DNA of 22,311 nt, from positions 1 to 22,311 of IMG/VR virus record IMGVR_UViG_3300035698_005635; one strand, 5' to 3'. Below are positions 9,652-22,311 of the stretch, piece after piece. Each line of letters starts with the position of its first letter. The stretch's first letter is position 1. Position numbers and translations under genes: made by a program. The notes beneath the pieces were generated by a model. That model was not told the origin of the DNA. It was given only the letters and a program-made list of their open reading frames with translations, and did not search any database. The DNA comes from a virus.

Positions 9652-11054
9652 AGGTTGGAATTGTCGGCCCATCTTATGAAATGCGTTCTTTGCCATTTGA
9701 TGCGCAGAGATCGATTAATCTTTTCCCCGTTTTTGACCAGCGGGGTAAAGAGGTTGCCGCTATGTATTCCACGCCCGGCAAGGTTCTGTTTGGAACTGCG
9801 GGAGTAGGTCCGGGGCGCGGCACCTTTGCCTCAAGTAATGGCAGGGCGTTTTCTGTCTCCGGCGCACAAATATATGAGGTTCTAAGCAACGGCGATACTG
9901 TGGAGATTGGCGGTCTTGACCAGTCTTCCGGCCTTATAACTATTGCGGAGAACAACACTCAGCTTGCCGTATGCGATGGGTTTAGTTTATATATTTTAAC
10001 ATATTCAACTGATGTATGGGTAAAAGTAAGCGCTGCTGGTTTTCCTGCTGGCGGCGCTGGCACTGTTACATTCATAGATGGTTATTTTGTTGTTAATGAA
10101 AACAACTCAGGCAGGTTCTTTATTTCTGCAATAAATAACGGCTTGCTCTGGGATGCTTTGGATTTTGCAACCGCCGAGAGCAGCCCTGATAAATTAGTCG
10201 CCTGCATAAACGCAGTCGGCCAGCTTTGGCTTTTCGGCGATAAAACAACAGAGATATGGTCAAACACTGGCGATAGCACATTCCCGTTCCGCCGTGTTTC
10301 CGGCGCTGTTATGGAGGCCGGAACGACTTCCGCTTTTTCTTTTGTTGAAATGGATAATAGTATTTTTTGGGTAGGGCAGGATGAATACGGGAGCGGCGTT
10401 GTGTATAGAACGCAAGGCTTTTCGCCTGCGCGTATTTCAACAACCGCAATTGAAAAACGCATTCAAGAGGCAACTGATTTAGAAAGCCTCACCTCTTGGG
10501 CGTACCAAGAAGAGGGTGCATCTTTTTATGTAATAACAGGCGGCGGGCTTGAGACTTCTCTTGTTTACGACTTGACCACGCAACAATGGCATGAACGCGC
10601 CTTTATGAATAGTGACGGAGATTTTGAGCAAGACCTTGCACAAGATCACATGTTTGCGTTTGGCAAGCATATTGTTAATGATAGAAGAAATGGCAATATA
10701 TACGATATGTCATTGGATTATTACGATGATGCAGGCGAAGAATTGGTTCGTGAAAGAATTTACACGCATTTAAGTGACGAGGGCCAAAGAATAAGGTACA
10801 ATAGTCTTGAAATAGGTTTTGAGGTTGGTGTAGGCTTACAAACGGGCCAAGGCTCAAATCCCCTTGTTTCCTTCTGCCTAAGCAAAGATGGCGGTCGTAG
10901 ATGGACTGATTGGGTCACTTCATCAATAGGCGCGGTAGGCAAATACCAAACAAAAGTTGTTTTTAGACGTTTGGGGATTGCCGAGCAAATGACATTTAGA
11001 TTAAGAATTACGGAGCCAGTACGCGTTGCCATAACAGGAAGTTATTTGTTATGA
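9648..11054 (+). CDS. Packaged-DNA stabilisation protein (P22 gp10-like)
   Basis: 468 residues, nearly the length of P22 gp10 (472), directly after the gp4-like gene as in P22. Recognisable pieces are SLPFDAQRSINLFPVFDQRGKEVAAMYSTPG near the N-terminus, and beta-propeller-like blades such as TFIDGYFVVNENNSGRFFIS and VGQLWLFGDKTTEIWSNTGD (~175-220), ending in VFRRLGIAEQMTFRLRITEPV. It plugs the portal channel after packaging and carries the fibres or needle. The start is TTG (9648), overlapping the previous stop as TTGA, with GGGGG at 9634-9638; the next ATG would lose conserved N-terminal sequence. Confidence 0.9.
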   Translation: MKVGIVGPSYEMRSLPFDAQRSINLFPVFDQRGKEVAAMYSTPGKVLFGTAGVGPGRGTFASSNGRAFSVSGAQIYEVLSNGDTVEIGGLDQSSGLITIAENNTQLAVCDGFSLYILTYSTDVWVKVSAAGFPAGGAGTVTFIDGYFVVNENNSGRFFISAINNGLLWDALDFATAESSPDKLVACINAVGQLWLFGDKTTEIWSNTGDSTFPFRRVSGAVMEAGTTSAFSFVEMDNSIFWVGQDEYGSGVVYRTQGFSPARISTTAIEKRIQEATDLESLTSWAYQEEGASFYVITGGGLETSLVYDLTTQQWHERAFMNSDGDFEQDLAQDHMFAFGKHIVNDRRNGNIYDMSLDYYDDAGEELVRERIYTHLSDEGQRIRYNSLEIGFEVGVGLQTGQGSNPLVSFCLSKDGGRRWTDWVTSSIGAVGKYQTKVVFRRLGIAEQMTFRLRITEPVRVAITGSYLL

Positions 11055-15704: not shown

Positions 15705-17543
15705 ATGGCCGTCCTGTATTCTCAGCATTTTGTGCAATTCTTTGATGATGATGGCCTTCCGCTATCAGGTGGGAAGCTTTACACCTACGCCGCAGGAACC
15801 ACAACACCAAAAGCAACCTACACAACAGCCGCCGCCACAGTAGAGAACGCCAACCCCGTTATCTTGGATGCGTCAGGCCGTGCGGTTATATTTATCGCAG
15901 GGTCGTATAAATACACCCTGCTTGATGCTAATGATGCCCTTATAAGAACGACCGACAACGTCACAGCCTTTACAGCAACAGGTGAGGCTTCGGACGCGTA
16001 TTTCCAGACATTCTCCGGTGATGGAACACAAACAGTCTTTACGCTTTCGGAGGATTTAGGGTCTGATGAGAAAACTGTTATGCTTTTTGTCGATAATTCC
16101 AATCGTGATTATGTAACAAACGGCTCTTTCGCAACAGATACAGACTGGACAAAAGGCACTGGCTGGTCTATCGGCTCTGGTGTTGCAACAGCCGCAGGCG
16201 CTATTTCTACAGCTATTTCGCAAACAACACCGTTCACTCTAATCGAGGGTGTTGCTTATGTTGTCACTATGACAATCACCAGAAGCGCCGGAGATTTAAA
16301 AGCCTCCCTTGGCGGCACTGACGGCACAGCACGCGCTACAAGCGGCACATACTCCGAGGTTATCATAGCAGGTTCAACGCAAATCCTAGCCTTTACTGGT
16401 AATGCGTTTACAGGAACGCTTGATGCTGTGACAGTCAAGCTTGCAAACGGCAAGGGTTTTGAGATTCAATCCACAACAACGTACACAATAAGCGGCACAA
16501 GTTTAACAATCGCCTCGGCCCCCGCGACAGGAACAAATAATATCCAGCTATGGGCACCCGCGCGGCTTGCAAACGCTGCCTCTGCCTCTGCGGACGCGGC
16601 GGATGGCTCAGCTAGTGCGGCGGCAGCAAGCGCGGCGGCGGCTCTTGTTTCTGAGAACAATGCAGCAACCTCCGAAACAAACGCAGCGACTTCCGAAACA
16701 AACGCGCAGACTGCAGCAAATGATGCGGCTGCGAAGTTGTCCGGCACTTCCGCAACTTCTGTTTTAATAGCCACAGGCTCAACCGCCTTTACAACCGAGG
16801 CCTCTAAGCACTTTGAGGCTGGAAACTGGCTTACAATATCCTCCTCGGCCGATAACGCCAACTTCATGTTTGGCCAAGTAACAGCTTATTCCGGCACAGC
16901 ATTAACGGTGAACGTCACAGCAATTGGTGGCGCTGGAACCTTTTCGGACTGGCTTGTAAATGTTTCAGGCACTCGCGGGCCTATGGGCCCGGCAGGCGGG
17001 CCGCTTGTAGATGGTGATTATGGTGATGTCACCGCATCAAGCTCCGGCACAGTCATTACAATTGATAATACAGTTGTTTCAAACGCCAAGCTCGCAAACG
17101 TATCCACAGCGACAATCAAGGGCCGGACAACGGGCGGCACAGGCTCGCCGGAGGATTTAACGGCCACTCAAGCGCGGGGCGTGATGAGTGTTTACTCTCA
17201 AGCTGAGGTTACATCTGCGATAGCCGCTGCAATCGCCCTTCTGCCTGAAAAATATCAATTTAAATTTGTAAATAATGGTTCTACAATTGCAGTCACTACA
17301 CAATACGGCGGGGTTTGCACAGGTGTGCGCAACTCGGCTGGAAATGTCACAATCACCATGCCCACAGCTTTAACCACAGCGTCAATGAATATTCTTGCAG
17401 GGCTAGACGAAAACGGAACCTCTACAATTCTTTGCGAGCTTGAGGTTTTAAGCACTACAACATTTAGAGTTATCTCAAAACATACGAGCGGTACGCTTAG
17501 TGATAGAGATTTAATGATTAGAGTTTCAGGGGTGTTGGTATGA
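15705..17543 (+). CDS. Tail fibre protein with inserted carbohydrate-binding-like domain
   Basis: 612 residues. N-terminus (1-90) is the common podoviral fibre/spike head-binding type: FFDDDGLPLSGGKLYTYAAG, NPVILDASGRAVIFIAGSYKYTL. Next is a fibre domain (YFQTFSGDGTQTVFTLSEDL ... YTISGTSLTIASAPATGTNN, 99-280) interrupted by a galactose-binding-like jelly-roll region (~134-247, TNGSFATDTDWTKGTGWSIG). An Ala/Ser/Asn shaft follows (288-346, with ATSETNAATSETNAQTAAND), a short collagen-like GPMGPAGGP (425-433), the TASSSGTVITIDNTVVSNAK repeat-type domain and a ~100-residue beta C-terminus ending DRDLMIRVSGVLV. No polysaccharide-depolymerase domain is visible, so it is a binding fibre rather than a P22-like enzymatic spike. 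It probably attaches to the gp4/gp10-like hub. Confidence 0.88.
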   Translation: MAVLYSQHFVQFFDDDGLPLSGGKLYTYAAGTTTPKATYTTAAATVENANPVILDASGRAVIFIAGSYKYTLLDANDALIRTTDNVTAFTATGEASDAYFQTFSGDGTQTVFTLSEDLGSDEKTVMLFVDNSNRDYVTNGSFATDTDWTKGTGWSIGSGVATAAGAISTAISQTTPFTLIEGVAYVVTMTITRSAGDLKASLGGTDGTARATSGTYSEVIIAGSTQILAFTGNAFTGTLDAVTVKLANGKGFEIQSTTTYTISGTSLTIASAPATGTNNIQLWAPARLANAASASADAADGSASAAAASAAAALVSENNAATSETNAATSETNAQTAANDAAAKLSGTSATSVLIATGSTAFTTEASKHFEAGNWLTISSSADNANFMFGQVTAYSGTALTVNVTAIGGAGTFSDWLVNVSGTRGPMGPAGGPLVDGDYGDVTASSSGTVITIDNTVVSNAKLANVSTATIKGRTTGGTGSPEDLTATQARGVMSVYSQAEVTSAIAAAIALLPEKYQFKFVNNGSTIAVTTQYGGVCTGVRNSAGNVTITMPTALTTASMNILAGLDENGTSTILCELEVLSTTTFRVISKHTSGTLSDRDLMIRVSGVLV

Positions 17544-18052
17544 TTTTATCTCTTATAGGCGCACTACTTTATCGCTGGCGCGGCATGAACCACGATAACA
17601 CATGGTTCAAAAGACCGCTTCCACAACTCGCTTTTGCCCTGCCCTATGCGGTAGTCGCGGCTTTGTTTTGGTGGGGTGAGCTTGGTTATTACGCTTTGGC
17701 AGTTGGCGGCGTTATCTGGGCCTTAACAGCTCTCGCGGTTGCCACAGGGCATGGGCGCGGCATTGATCTGGGTGATACGGATATAGGCGAGCCTGAAAAG
17801 CTTGAATTTCTAATCAAATGGATCAAGCCAAAAGTACCTTTATACTGGTATGACATGGCGCTCTTATCCATCACAGGACTTGCTATTACGCTTCCTGCTG
17901 GCCTTACTACGCTCAACCCTGTTCTTGCTCTCTCGGGGCTTCTTAAAGGCCCAGCATACGGGGTAGCTAAATTCGGTGGTGCGCGTACCGAGGGCGGGGA
18001 AATTCTCACAGGCGCTCTTTTATGGGGTGCTATTGCAATCTATTTAATTTAA
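17540..18052 (+). CDS. Polytopic membrane protein of unknown function (170 aa)
   Basis: Coupled to the fibre gene by ATGA. Predicted spans by eye are at about 29-46, 50-69, 105-131 and 152-170, plus a short hydrophobic N-terminus ending in YRWRGMNHDNTWFKRP. The loop after the second span carries GHGRGIDLGDTDIGEPEKLEF (70-90), which looks constrained with its invariant-looking His, Gly and Asp. I have an impression of similar proteins beside fibre genes in other phages but cannot name a family. It is not a holin by length or position, being separated from the lysis genes. Superinfection exclusion or alteration of the host surface would suit its place; this is inference. Confidence 0.75.
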   Translation: MILSLIGALLYRWRGMNHDNTWFKRPLPQLAFALPYAVVAALFWWGELGYYALAVGGVIWALTALAVATGHGRGIDLGDTDIGEPEKLEFLIKWIKPKVPLYWYDMALLSITGLAITLPAGLTTLNPVLALSGLLKGPAYGVAKFGGARTEGGEILTGALLWGAIAIYLI

Positions 18053-18054
18053 TG

Positions 18055-18070
18055 AGGAGAACTAAAAATG
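18055..18070 (+). promoter_or_regulatory. Strong RBS matching the coat leader
   Basis: AGGAGAACTAAAA leads into ATGGCTA, the same leader as the coat gene minus one A. It implies that the short protein that follows is made in large amounts. Confidence 0.65.
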
Positions 18071-18433
18071 GCTACAGTACCGCTACAATTAGAGAATAAA
18101 GGGAACGTCCAGCATGTTAAATGGGAGGCGTTATCAACAAACGATTACGGCCAGCCTTGGGAGTTGCCCGCAAACGCTGATAAGACGTTTCAAATACTAG
18201 GAAACTTCGGCTCGGGCGCTACAGTTGTTTTACAAGGCTCTAATGTATGGAACCCTGTTTTAACAACCGATGCGGACTGGGAGTCTTTAACAGACACCAC
18301 AGAAACAGCCATAAGCACCACCTCAAAGCTTGGTGGTCAGGTTTTGCAGAACTATAGATGGGTTAGACCGAAAGTTACATCCGGCACAACTCCGGCTATA
18401 AATGTTTTAATTTGTGCAGCGAGGAACTACTAA
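18068..18433 (+). CDS. Small abundant structural-type protein (121 aa)
   Basis: A strand-rich, Cys-poor protein with no membrane segment. It opens ATVPLQLENKGNVQHVKWEAL and has GNFGSGATVVLQGSNVWNPV mid-sequence and VLQNYRWVRPKVTSGTTPAINVLICAARNY at the end: alternating hydrophobics with W/Y at regular places suggest a single beta-sandwich. Its ribosome-binding site equals that of the coat gene. Small beta-sandwich proteins are often capsid decorations or head/tail fibres, and this one may be such; the sequence alone does not decide. It is separated from the next ATG by a single base. Confidence 0.7.
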   Translation: MATVPLQLENKGNVQHVKWEALSTNDYGQPWELPANADKTFQILGNFGSGATVVLQGSNVWNPVLTTDADWESLTDTTETAISTTSKLGGQVLQNYRWVRPKVTSGTTPAINVLICAARNY

Positions 18434-18434
18434 A

Positions 18435-18896
18435 ATGGATATTACAGAACTTAAAAAAATCGTAAAAGATGGCCTTGTGCAATACAAGGGCTATAAAGAA
18501 GCAGATGAAGCTTTGAAGCAAATTGACTCGCTAAAACAAGCAGAGCGCGATATTGCAGGCGAAATCAAAAAGCTTGAAGTCCAGCGCGAGGCTTTTAAAA
18601 GTGATGTTTCTTCTTTGAAAGGCAAAACAGACGAAGCAAGCGCAAAAGCGCTTAGTGTTGTCTCGGCTGCAAAAGAACAGGCTGATAAAATCATTGAAGC
18701 AGCAGGAAAGGAAGCTTTTCTTTTACAAGAGAAATCTTTCAAAGAGTTAGAGCAAATTAAAGCGGCTTTGGTAAAATCTAAGGCCGAGTTGAAAGACGCT
18801 TCCGAAAAAGTGTCTTTTGTCACCGTTGAATTGCAAGAGCTAAACAAAGCAAAAGAAAAAGCGAAAAACACGCTAAAAAGCTTTGTTAGTGAATAA
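18435..18896 (+). CDS. Coiled-coil protein (153 aa)
   Basis: The ATG at 18435, with GAGG at 18421-18424, is preferred to an in-frame start at 18414 inside the previous gene. Nearly the whole product is charged heptad coiled coil: ALKQIDSLKQAERDIAGEIK, AKALSVVSAAKEQADKIIEA, FKELEQIKAALVKSKAELKD, rich in Lys/Glu/Ala with no Pro or Cys. It lacks a signal or membrane span. Such a rod could be a head fibre stalk or an assembly chaperone for the fibres around it. No family is recognisable because coiled coils give little specificity. Confidence 0.7.
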   Translation: MDITELKKIVKDGLVQYKGYKEADEALKQIDSLKQAERDIAGEIKKLEVQREAFKSDVSSLKGKTDEASAKALSVVSAAKEQADKIIEAAGKEAFLLQEKSFKELEQIKAALVKSKAELKDASEKVSFVTVELQELNKAKEKAKNTLKSFVSE

Positions 18897-19039
18897 TGTC
18901 TGTTTTTAGGCGCAGGCGCGGCCACCCGATTTTATCGAAGTTTAATCAAGCTTCTGGTTATTTCTCGGATGATGCGCTTGTTTTCGGTTATTTTTTTGAC
19001 GATGCCGTAACTCTAAGATATGTGAGCACCGATGCCTGA
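18896..19039 (+). CDS. Small protein with tandem GYFxDDA motif (47 aa)
   Basis: TAATG overlap with the previous stop, and its TGA overlaps the next gene's start by 8 bases; it exactly fills the gap between two genes. The N-terminus is very basic (MSVFRRRRGHP) and the rest contains two near-tandem copies of one unit, GYFSDDALVF and GYFFDDAVTL, likely a beta-hairpin. No ribosome-binding site of its own is evident, so translation would depend on coupling. Unknown function, perhaps a minor virion component. Confidence 0.5.
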   Translation: MSVFRRRRGHPILSKFNQASGYFSDDALVFGYFFDDAVTLRYVSTDA

Positions 19040-19781
19040 TACAACCATAAGAGATTTATCTGCTGGCTCTGCGGTTTTAGACGCAGACCTATTTATCTCC
19101 CGGCAGGGCGCGGACACCTCAGACGTTAGTATCACAGGCCTGCAAATAAAAAACTATATCGGCGCCTCTAATGGGTTCGTAGACCTTACGAGCGGGACAA
19201 ATACGACTGCGGCCATGGTGGTTGGCTCGGGCGCTACTTTGGCCGCAAGTGGCTCAGGCACGATTACAGCCACAGCCGCGCCGTTAAGCGGAATAACAGG
19301 CTTAGGAACCGGGGTAGGGACGTTTTTAGCAACTCCTTCGAGTGCTAACCTAGCTGCTGCTGTAACAGGTGAGACAGGCTCGGGCGCTTTGGTGTTTGGC
19401 ACTTCGCCGACTATTACAGGCGCGACTATGACAACGACCAGCGTCAACGGCGTAACGCTTGTTTCTGGCGGTACATCTACAAATTATCTGAGCGAGGACG
19501 GGACATATACGACACCTGCGGGTGGCGGCGGTTCTCCTGCGGGTTCAAGCGGCCAACTCCAATATAATTTTGGTGGGGTCTTTGGGGGCGCTGCGGCGCT
19601 TGCTTATGCCACAAGCGGCGCAAACCTCACAATCACAGGTCAAAACACTGGGGACGTGCCTTTAACACTGAGAGGCCATACCGCATACGACGGTAATCTT
19701 CAAAACAACTATGATGCTGGCGGGACTTTGCGCTCAGCATTTTTGCCGGGTGGTACGCTTTGGATCACAGGCGATGCTTAG
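19032..19781 (+). CDS. Tail fibre, N-terminal part, ended by in-frame amber
   Basis: 249 codons to a TAG at 19779-19781. The N-terminus TIRDLSAGSAVLDADLFISRQGADTSDVSITGLQIKNYI is a common fibre attachment domain; the remainder is a Gly/Thr/Ala-rich beta shaft (VVGSGATLAASGSGTITATAAPLSG, TGETGSGALVFGTSPTITGA) with a PAGGGGSPAGSSGQLQYNFGG linker. The frame stays open after the TAG for 37 codons up to an ATG at 19893 and on to TAA at 20276; the residues beyond ([20 protein letters not shown]) are natural fibre sequence. So this is the first 60% of what reads as one 414-codon gene. It may be a truncated fibre, a readthrough gene or a recent nonsense mutation. Confidence 0.75.
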   Translation: MPDTTIRDLSAGSAVLDADLFISRQGADTSDVSITGLQIKNYIGASNGFVDLTSGTNTTAAMVVGSGATLAASGSGTITATAAPLSGITGLGTGVGTFLATPSSANLAAAVTGETGSGALVFGTSPTITGATMTTTSVNGVTLVSGGTSTNYLSEDGTYTTPAGGGGSPAGSSGQLQYNFGGVFGGAAALAYATSGANLTITGQNTGDVPLTLRGHTAYDGNLQNNYDAGGTLRSAFLPGGTLWITGDA

Positions 19782-19892
19782 TATTGGGATTTAGTTCTTG
19801 AATCTGGCGCGGGGCTGCGCTCAGGCGCGTCCATACTTCTTAATGACGGTGTTGCACCGTCCTTTATAGGGGTTGCCAGCGGAAAATTAATT

Positions 19893-20276
19893 ATGGCCGC
19901 TGGGTATTATGCCAGTTCGCCAAAATACATTCAATTTAGCTTGTCAGGGACTCAGGGGAAAACCCACTGCTCTGACAGTCAAAATCTTTATGGTTCTGGT
20001 CTTTGTAATGGCGAGGTTGCTGTTTCTACTACAGTCCCCGCGTTTCATGCGCTTATGCGTGGTGCTCCTACCAGCGGGACAGCCAAGGCTTTTCAGGTAA
20101 CCTCCGGCGGCTCTTATGGCACTCAGGTTTGGAATGTTGATTTTACAGGTCGTCAATATATGCGCAATACAACAGCGCCCTCCACACCATCAAGCGGTGG
20201 TGTTCTTTATGTTGAGGGCGGCGCGTTAAAATATAAAGGTTCATCAGGAACTGTCACAACCATAGCCCCCGCATAA
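19893..20276 (+). CDS. Tail fibre, C-terminal part (in frame with preceding fibre)
   Basis: Positions 19782-20276 continue the frame of the fibre gene at 19032 after its amber codon; 19893 is merely the first ATG. A weak AGCGGAAAA lies ahead of that ATG, so separate translation of a 127-residue product is possible but not compelling. The product ([39 protein letters not shown]) and its ending [31 protein letters not shown] match the usual C-termini of fibre proteins, where the last strands form the tip. It therefore probably supplies the receptor-facing end of the second fibre. Contains three cysteine/aromatic-bearing loops ([19 protein letters not shown]). Confidence 0.65.
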
Positions 20277-20289
20277 AAAGGAAATTATT

Positions 20290-20583
20290 ATGCCAGAATT
20301 AGTTTTTAAAGTACCAGTGCCAGCCGATAAGGTTGATGGCTTTGTTTTGGCCTTTGCCTCAAACCATGGCTGGCTTCCATTCGCCAATGATGAAAACGGT
20401 GATGAAATACCGAACCCCGTCACGCCTTTGATGCACGTGAGAAACACGTTAAATCGTTTTATCGCAGATGGTGTTTCAAATTACATGGCGCAAGAGGCTG
20501 GAGAAGCGGCGCGGAAAGCAACTCTTGAGGCTGTACAGACAGATTTGGGTGGTATCGTTTCTGAGTTGATTGTGGAGGAATAA
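20290..20583 (+). CDS. Conserved-type small phage protein (97 aa)
   Basis: AAGGAAATTATT before the ATG is a good ribosome-binding site. The product has a FASNHGWLPFANDENGDEIPNPVTPLMHVRNTLNRFIADGVSNYMAQEAGE block; I recall similar short proteins between fibre and lysis genes of other phages, without a known function. The first 30 residues look beta-rich, the rest helical, no membrane segment. Placement just before the lysis cassette, one base from the next gene's ATG after its TAA, suggests a shared transcript. Function unknown. Confidence 0.7.
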   Translation: MPELVFKVPVPADKVDGFVLAFASNHGWLPFANDENGDEIPNPVTPLMHVRNTLNRFIADGVSNYMAQEAGEAARKATLEAVQTDLGGIVSELIVEE

Positions 20584-20997
20584 ATGCAAAAAGAAGAAGA
20601 GCAAACACTGGTAAGAGTTTTGTCTGCTATTAGTGAAAAAATAGACAACAACAAAACAAGCAAGTGGACGGATTGGGGTATGCGCATTGCCGCAACCGTT
20701 TCCACAGCGGGTATCATGGCCGTTCTCGCTCTTTTTACAACGACAATCCCGCAGCTAAAAAACAGCATTGCTCAGATTTCATGGGAAACCTCAGCAATGA
20801 AAGACCAGCTTTCAAAGCTGGTCTCAGAACCGCGTTTCACTCTTAAAGACTACAACCTTGAAGAGCGCGAACAACGCGCAGACCTTGCCCGAATCAAAGC
20901 TTTAATAGATTTTAGTGGGGATTGGATGAAGCAAAAAGATGCGATAAACGCCGCGCAGGATTTTAGGATTGATAACTTGGAAAAGAAAGTGAATTGA
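20584..20997 (+). CDS. Single-span membrane protein, holin candidate (137 aa)
   Basis: GAGGAA before the ATG. An amphipathic N-terminal helix (EEEQTLVRVLSAISEKIDNN) is followed by one membrane span (about 31-55, WGMRIAATVSTAGIMAVLAL) and a charged helical C-terminus (LEEREQRADLARIKALID, DFRIDNLEKKVN). It heads the lysis cassette. The layout resembles XhlA-like or other single-span holin-associated proteins more than the two-span pinholins that usually work with SAR lysozymes. A holin, holin partner or anti-holin are all possible. A 23-base near-perfect palindrome lies in the reading frame at 20802-20824. Confidence 0.6.
   Translation: MQKEEEQTLVRVLSAISEKIDNNKTSKWTDWGMRIAATVSTAGIMAVLALFTTTIPQLKNSIAQISWETSAMKDQLSKLVSEPRFTLKDYNLEEREQRADLARIKALIDFSGDWMKQKDAINAAQDFRIDNLEKKVN
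20802..20824. repeat. 23-base near-perfect palindrome inside coding sequence
   Basis: AGACCAGCTTT - C - AAAGCTGGTCT: 11-base perfect arms around one central base. As RNA it folds to a stem of about 10 pairs with a TCA loop, within the codons for DQLSKLV. No T-run follows, so it is not a classical terminator. Confidence 0.75.
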
Positions 20998-20998
20998 A

Positions 20999-21226
20999 AT
21001 GTTTGATATTGTTTTTATGATTGTATTACTTATTGTATTCCTAGCTTTGTACTTATTTGAGTTTTTAAAAAACAAAGACCTCAAGGAAACCATAAAACAA
21101 AGAGAAGACGTTATCTTTCACTTACAAAAAACAAGCCGCGTCCTTAAAAGCGCTCTGCGGCATTCAAAGCGTAACGATACGCCAAAAGACCTTGTGACAG
21201 GTAGGTTTATTAAAAAGGAAAAATAG
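20999..21226 (+). CDS. Small N-anchored membrane protein of lysis cassette (75 aa)
   Basis: A very hydrophobic N-terminus (FDIVFMIVLLIVFLALYLFEFL, residues 2-23) is followed by a basic helical domain (KDLKETIKQREDVIFHLQK, SRVLKSALRHSKRND) and the tail VTGRFIKKEK. One membrane span, cytoplasmic or periplasmic tail not decidable by eye. Being directly upstream of the SAR endolysin it is the second holin candidate, though it could also be an additional anchored coiled-coil protein. It has little ribosome-binding sequence and begins one base after the previous TGA, so coupled translation is likely. The next ATG follows its TAG by one base. Confidence 0.6.
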   Translation: MFDIVFMIVLLIVFLALYLFEFLKNKDLKETIKQREDVIFHLQKTSRVLKSALRHSKRNDTPKDLVTGRFIKKEK

Positions 21227-21227
21227 A

Positions 21228-21740
21228 ATGTTTGGAATATTCAAAAACGCCCCCAAAAGATCAGGAGCAGCGGTTGCAACGCCTTTAATCATGGCGGCAG
21301 CTTTGTTTATCGGCCCGATGGAAGGCCGCGAATACACCCCGTATTATGATGTTGGCGGCGTTCTAACTGTTTGCGATGGCCACACAGGGCCGGATATTGT
21401 GGTAGGAAAGATTTATAATGACATAGAATGCGATAATTTATTCTATTCAGATTTAAATAAGCACGAAAAGCAGCTTGATGGGATAATCACATATACGCCG
21501 ATACCGGACAAAACCAAAATCGCGCTCTTGTCTTTCACGTTTAACGTAGGACAAGGCAATCTTGCATCATCCACACTTGCCAGAAAAGCCAACGCTGGCG
21601 ATTTAGAGGGCGCATGCAATGAATTAAGCCGCTGGGTGTATGTGAAGCGCAAATATGTCCGAGGCCTCTACAACCGCCGTATAAGCGAAAAAGGCCTATG
21701 TCTGGAAGGTTTAGGTAAAAACCCGATATGGGGGGTATAA
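21228..21740 (+). CDS. SAR endolysin, GH24 lysozyme (R21-like)
   Basis: 170 residues. Cleaves peptidoglycan glycan strands. The GH24 catalytic pattern E-x8-D-x5-T is present: E32, D41, T47 in MEGREYTPYYDVGGVLTVCDGHTG. Residues 14-30 (AAVATPLIMAAALFIGP) are a weakly hydrophobic, Ala/Gly-rich N-terminal segment after a basic KRSG, the hallmark of signal-anchor-release endolysins such as that of phage 21, to which the rest is plainly related (ALLSFTFNVGQGNLASSTLARKANAGDLEGACNELSRW, YNRRISEKGLCLEG). It is secreted by the host Sec machinery, held inactive in the membrane and released when the membrane is depolarised. AAGGA precedes the ATG. Cys residues at 49, 71, 136 and 157 fit redox-sensitive relatives. 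Confidence 0.93.
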   Translation: MFGIFKNAPKRSGAAVATPLIMAAALFIGPMEGREYTPYYDVGGVLTVCDGHTGPDIVVGKIYNDIECDNLFYSDLNKHEKQLDGIITYTPIPDKTKIALLSFTFNVGQGNLASSTLARKANAGDLEGACNELSRWVYVKRKYVRGLYNRRISEKGLCLEGLGKNPIWGV

Positions 21741-21962
21741 ATGTTTGGTTTCAACCCGTGGTTGATACTCGCTGTGTTTCTGGCCGTTACGGGGGCGCTG
21801 GGCGGGATGTATGTCAAGGGCCGCATGGACGCGGCGAATAACTGCAGGGTTGCCGCGCTGAAAAAAACAATCATAATTGGAGAGAAGAGAAATGAAATCG
21901 CAAATAACCGCCCTGATGATACTCTTACTATTAAGCGGCTGCGCAGCAAAGCCCAGTTCTAA
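21741..21962 (+). CDS. Inner-membrane spanin subunit (Rz-like)
   Basis: 73 residues directly after the endolysin stop, with GGGGGG before the ATG. One N-terminal span (about 7-24, WLILAVFLAVTGALGGMY) is followed by a charged helix (KGRMDAANNCRVAALKKT) and the ending NRPDDTLTIKRLRSKAQF, a form common in Rz-type i-spanins. It is short for an i-spanin, so its periplasmic reach is limited. With its partner it fuses inner and outer membranes in the last step of lysis. The o-spanin gene begins inside it in another frame. Confidence 0.78.
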   Translation: MFGFNPWLILAVFLAVTGALGGMYVKGRMDAANNCRVAALKKTIIIGEKRNEIANNRPDDTLTIKRLRSKAQF

Positions 21963-22101
21963 TTCCGGTTTTAGCATTCCAGAGTACAGCCAACAAACGC
22001 GGAACACCGCCGCAGATGAAATGGAGGGCAAAACCTGCCCCACGTTGAACGGCTTTGTGAATGATTACAGCGTTCTTAGGGATCAGGCGCGGATTCGGTG
22101 A
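21892..22101 (+). CDS. Outer-membrane spanin lipoprotein (Rz1-like)
   Basis: 69 residues. The ATG at 21892 is preferred to the TTG at 21877 because GGAGAGAAGAG precedes it and gives a proper signal peptide. Signal sequence MKSQITALMILLLLSGC ends in an LSGC lipobox, so Cys17 would be lipidated and the mature protein sent to the outer membrane. The first 71 bases lie inside the i-spanin gene in a different frame, the usual Rz/Rz1 arrangement. The mature part begins AAKPSSNSG and ends FVNDYSVLRDQARIR. Confidence 0.83.
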   Translation: MKSQITALMILLLLSGCAAKPSSNSGFSIPEYSQQTRNTAADEMEGKTCPTLNGFVNDYSVLRDQARIR

Positions 22102-22112
22102 CGCATTGTGTT

Positions 22113-22310
22113 TTATTGGCCTCTTGCTTTTTCTTTCTTTGCTCTTGCTTTCATGTCCGCTAAAGCTTCGTCATTGCCGCAATAAAAATCAGGCATTTTT
22201 TCAATAACGGGGTCGCTGGCCAAATATATAAGCGCGGCTGCTGCGGTCGTACCGTAGGCCCATTCAAGGGTTTTCCCTGCCTCACCCGCAAGGACAACAA
22301 CCCAACCAGC
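22113..22310 (-). CDS. Unknown minus-strand gene, 3' part only
   Basis: Read on the minus strand, 65 codons are open from the window edge to TAA at 22113-22115: AGWVVVLAGEAGKTLEWAYG, then TTAAAALIYLASDPVIEKMP, DFYCGNDEALADMKARAKKE and a basic end. The composition looks protein-like, with one possible short hydrophobic segment (TTAAAALIYLA). It converges on the o-spanin gene with only 11 bases between stops and no visible bidirectional terminator. The start is outside the window. No family recognised. It is the only minus-strand gene here and could mark the end of the late operon. Confidence 0.5.
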   Translation of the reverse strand, partial: AGWVVVLAGEAGKTLEWAYGTTAAAALIYLASDPVIEKMPDFYCGNDEALADMKARAKKEKARGQ

Positions 22311-22311
22311 C

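Follow-up and report, generated by a model that had tools for sequence, protein, structure and literature searches.

The range of bacteria open to a phage is set by its tail-fibre genes, which are often lost or swapped. In laboratory lambda, the side tail fibre gene stf is broken by a frameshift (PMC10721106), and in a biofilm-like setting, in which rapid adsorption carries a cost, selection favoured stf mutations and the mutants took over (PMC2762979). As lambda stf illustrates, losing a side fibre can be of no consequence to a phage or even be favoured by selection. A host-range mutant of a kayvirus shows another route, in which a deletion splits a tail-fibre gene and leaves two ORFs (PMC6445280). 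Among phages that read TAG as an amino acid under code 15, about half carry a suppressor tRNA with a CTA anticodon (PMC11210395).

We analyzed a stretch of viral DNA of 22,311 nucleotides (the window), which is an entire IMG/VR virus record consisting of a single contig (positions 1–22,311). Matches to PHROG families identified a portal, a large terminase, a head protein, an Hc3 head-closure protein, an ejection protein and a lysozyme, and the portal is P22-like; the window is a 22.3-kb fragment of an uncultured P22-like podovirus. An Rfam scan of the window gave no matches, and within 17500–22311 there were no strong repeats pointing to an invertible segment or to a diversity-generating retroelement with its template/variable repeat pair. 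One fibre-like gene lies intact at 15705–17543, with its N-terminal half conserved in two of the compared loci (L105 and L106).

The other fibre gene starts at ATG 19032 on the plus strand and runs for 249 codons, encoding an N-terminal anchor and a repetitive shaft, to an in-frame amber codon at 19779–19781 (5′ part, 19032–19781). Beyond it, the frame stays open through a distal part of 164 sense codons (19782–20276, plus strand) ending in TAA at 20274–20276; the preliminary description had reported this open frame correctly, its count of 165 codons including the stop. It had also stated that no start serves the first 37 codons after the amber (19782–19892), and these indeed contain no ATG, GTG or TTG. 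The earliest in-frame start is ATG 19893, which would open a putative re-initiated ORF of 127 aa (19893–20276, plus strand) behind a weak Shine–Dalgarno sequence. An in-frame 26-nt direct repeat (19712–19737 and 19799–19824, with 19 of 26 positions identical and the copies 29 codons apart) flanks the amber codon and may represent two copies of a shaft repeat. We dropped it as evidence: it was not significant at the protein level, and the DNA-level result (0 of 200 codon shuffles) concerned a pair picked post hoc.

The stretch downstream of the amber codon is coding in character. Shuffling its bases 20,000 times left 164 codons open in only 6 cases. When scored in bits per codon from the codon usage of the other genes in the window, the 37 start-less codons reached +0.19 in the fibre frame, whereas the remaining five frames gave –0.09 to –1.07, and are thus coding-like in the fibre frame only; the part after ATG 19893 was likewise positive in that frame (+0.16). 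For a base rate, we examined 1,123 non-overlapping ORFs, each 120 aa or longer, from the window and the compared loci (about 110 sequences) for at least 60 open in-frame codons after the stop and no start within the first 20. Start-less extensions of this kind followed 37 of the ORFs, and the post-stop stretch scored as non-coding in nearly all, which marks these as neighbouring genes or as stretches open by chance. Of the extensions that score clearly above zero, that of the window fibre is the longest (+0.19, the higher-scoring of the remaining two forward frames giving –0.64), and the single comparable score belongs to an ORF of L012 (+0.24, 101 codons) that has no PHROG match. Among the ORFs screened, the window fibre is the clearest in-frame interruption. 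Three fibre ORFs with a terminal TAG, in L068, L069 and L077, were at first taken for the same phenomenon but rejected, because they end normally: more stops follow, and after these comes the next gene.

The distal part has the usual C-terminus of a fibre, as the preliminary description had recognized. Its last 34 residues match the extreme C-termini of continuous fibre ORFs in unrelated phages, namely gp06 of Xanthomonas phage XAJ24 (L098; 479 aa), a fibre of Xanthomonas phage GF1 (L102), gp41 of Streptomyces phage LuckySocke (L099) and a 528-codon ORF of an environmental viral contig (L081). The last ~34 residues also match the C-terminus of a solved hyaluronidase, 4UFQ (E 1.1e-5), which we take to be a trimeric phage-like beta-helical enzyme. 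The short ending common to these four phage sequences and the PDB entry lies at 20172–20273 and is probably a mobile fibre-end module; a weak match to the short P1201 gp48 (E 0.8) hints that it may occur on small proteins too. Compared with viral and genome contigs, the distal part gave a sole match, the 36-residue C-terminal one in the environmental contig, and none in genomes; plasmids gave no match. Because no homologue was detected for residues 250–336, the middle of the distal part, continuity across them rests on the frame and the coding score. An AlphaFold2 model of residues 172–414, read through and predicted from the single sequence, had a mean pLDDT of 35 and was uninformative except for the last ~25 residues.

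A relative, L106, carries an uninterrupted homologue at this locus, a fibre 660 aa long; the homology covers the N-terminal anchor only (63% identity over the N-terminal 46 aa of the window fibre), while shaft and tip differ. The two fibres share their context, being preceded by the same 121-aa protein, a coiled-coil protein and an overlapping 47-aa ORF. In the window, the latter (18896–19039, plus strand) overlaps both the preceding stop (TAATG) and the fibre start (ATGCCTGA), and its homologue is found at the same place in L106, at about 10827–10973; this conserved overlap suggests possible translational coupling into the fibre gene. At 1003–1392 of L108, a complete 129-aa protein, which ends in TGA and is followed by a separate 559-aa gene, carries a similar N-terminal anchor (43% over 83 residues), an arrangement from which the anchor is seen to pair with very different tips. 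In L104 (10829–16124), the 121-aa neighbour is 85% identical, yet the fibre slot after the coiled-coil gene holds unrelated genes, which suggests wholesale gene exchange. Homologues of the 121-aa neighbour in L110–L112 were set aside as fibre-locus comparators, as they are not syntenic at the fibre. The differing shaft and tip of L106 and the differences in L108 and L104 thus identify the fibre locus as a variable module, most likely one serving receptor binding. The assignment of both pieces to one fibre gene is supported at the level of homology, because the homologous C-termini end continuous fibre ORFs and the syntenic fibre of L106 is uninterrupted. Homologues split into consistently separate genes with their own starts, named in the preliminary description as counting against a single gene, were not found for the C-terminal part; the anchor does occur on a short separate protein in L108.

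We favor, with a probability of roughly 0.6, the reading that a 414-codon tail-fibre gene of a P22-like podovirus has received a single nonsense substitution, placing an amber at position 250. The observations behind it are the frame, the coding character on both sides, the conserved fibre C-terminus, the intact homologue at the same locus and the lack of a recoding signature. One substitution would have cut the gene before its distal domain and conserved end, and the resulting 249-aa fragment would probably not be assembled, because it lacks the receptor-facing domain and the conserved C-terminal end. The phage may tolerate the loss, with the fibre gene at 15705–17543 intact and the slot variable between relatives, and the affected gene would be a dispensable, fast-evolving receptor-binding gene. 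With the downstream frame free of any second lesion, the nonsense variant is probably recent. The change itself is inferred, not directly observed: the exact pattern spanning the amber was matched nowhere, with no second contig over the site and no near-identical version carrying a sense codon. Within a single contig, a sequencing or assembly error is indistinguishable from a real mutation, and the main alternative is that the TAG arose as a one-base error of the consensus or reflects a minority variant in the metagenome assembly, the fibre being intact in the population. The otherwise intact gene is what an isolated error would leave, and the record is a single IMG/VR contig; there is, however, no homopolymer at the site, and no damage is visible in any other gene in the ORF list of the window. 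We give such an error a clearly smaller, though appreciable, chance than a nonsense mutation. One or the other is likely to be right among the options that had been put forward.

The remaining explanations keep the amber functional or treat it as a true gene end. Programmed or suppressor-dependent readthrough would yield a majority of 249-aa short fibres and a minority of 414-aa long ones. Both parts are intact and in frame, and the naturally short 129-aa protein of L108, with the same type of anchor, makes a short form not absurd, but the 249-aa product would lack the C-terminal end that is conserved in other fibres. A purine after UAG favours suppression (PMC6266110), whereas the base here is U, and the RNA fold around the amber is ordinary (z = –1.16 versus shuffles), so that neither a stimulating context nor a stimulating structure was found. 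The amber is shared by neither of two comparators, which are not homologous at the site itself: the intact L106 has no stop at the position, and the short gene of L108 ends in TGA within unrelated sequence. The search for an amber-suppressor tRNA, as had been proposed, found no tRNA in the window or in six relatives; the records may be fragments, and some recoded phages have no such tRNA. We consider readthrough unlikely, and the suggestion of a suppressor tRNA or programmed event gained nothing from these results. The alternative of two real genes, the 249-aa fibre and a 127-aa protein re-initiated at ATG 19893, is weakly possible and in our estimate quite unlikely. At least one gene start of the window has a weaker anti-Shine–Dalgarno pairing than this ATG (–3.5 kcal/mol), and modular small fibre genes exist (the 129-aa gene of L108 and, by its weak match, P1201 gp48); nevertheless, the value of ATG 19893 is unremarkable, the median over all ATGs being –2.7 and most real starts lying lower, the ATG is internal and 111 nt beyond the TAG, the close C-terminal homologues are the ends of long single ORFs, and 37 coding-like codons would be left unexplained. 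A stop leaky by design, with fibres of two lengths made at a constant ratio or the long form made only in amber-suppressing hosts, would turn the amber into a host-range switch operated by translation; positive support for programmed short and long fibres is absent, and we regard the idea as very unlikely. Under a genetic code that assigns an amino acid to TAG (code 15 or a similar one), the fibre frame would be open, but, as had been noted, three other genes terminate in TAG (2669, 7416 and 21226), the ends at 2669 and 7416 meeting another stop within two codons. With no other long gene interrupted by TAG and no suppressor tRNA found, the earlier rejection of a recoded code holds, and we give this possibility hardly any weight.

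The evidence points to an interruption that is real and was rightly described, with an ordinary explanation and no indication of a programmed switch. One isolated in-frame amber does not make a metagenomic contig evidence for recoding or readthrough; the nonsense mutation, if real, adds one more natural broken fibre, in an uncultured phage. TAG-recoded phages such as Lak and crAss-like phages resemble the window in having an in-frame TAG in a late structural gene, but they have many interrupted genes, whereas here there is one, the other TAGs terminate and no tRNA was found. Gp06 of XAJ24 bears the same C-terminal end motif and adjoins the lysis cassette, as the window fibre does, but is one continuous ORF of 479 aa and differs in its N-terminus and shaft. 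In Kayvirus 812K1/420, a premature stop likewise leaves the tail-fibre complex gene orf119 as two ORFs, although the split there comes from a 77-bp deletion (PMC6445280). Lambda PaPa offers a further likeness: in stf a single small mutation disrupts a fibre gene, which lambda tolerates, and in the window both halves lie in one frame and are recognizable as one fibre protein. The lesion in stf is a frameshift and that in the window a nonsense codon, and lambda is an isolated and tested siphovirus, whereas the window is a fragment of an uncultured podovirus.
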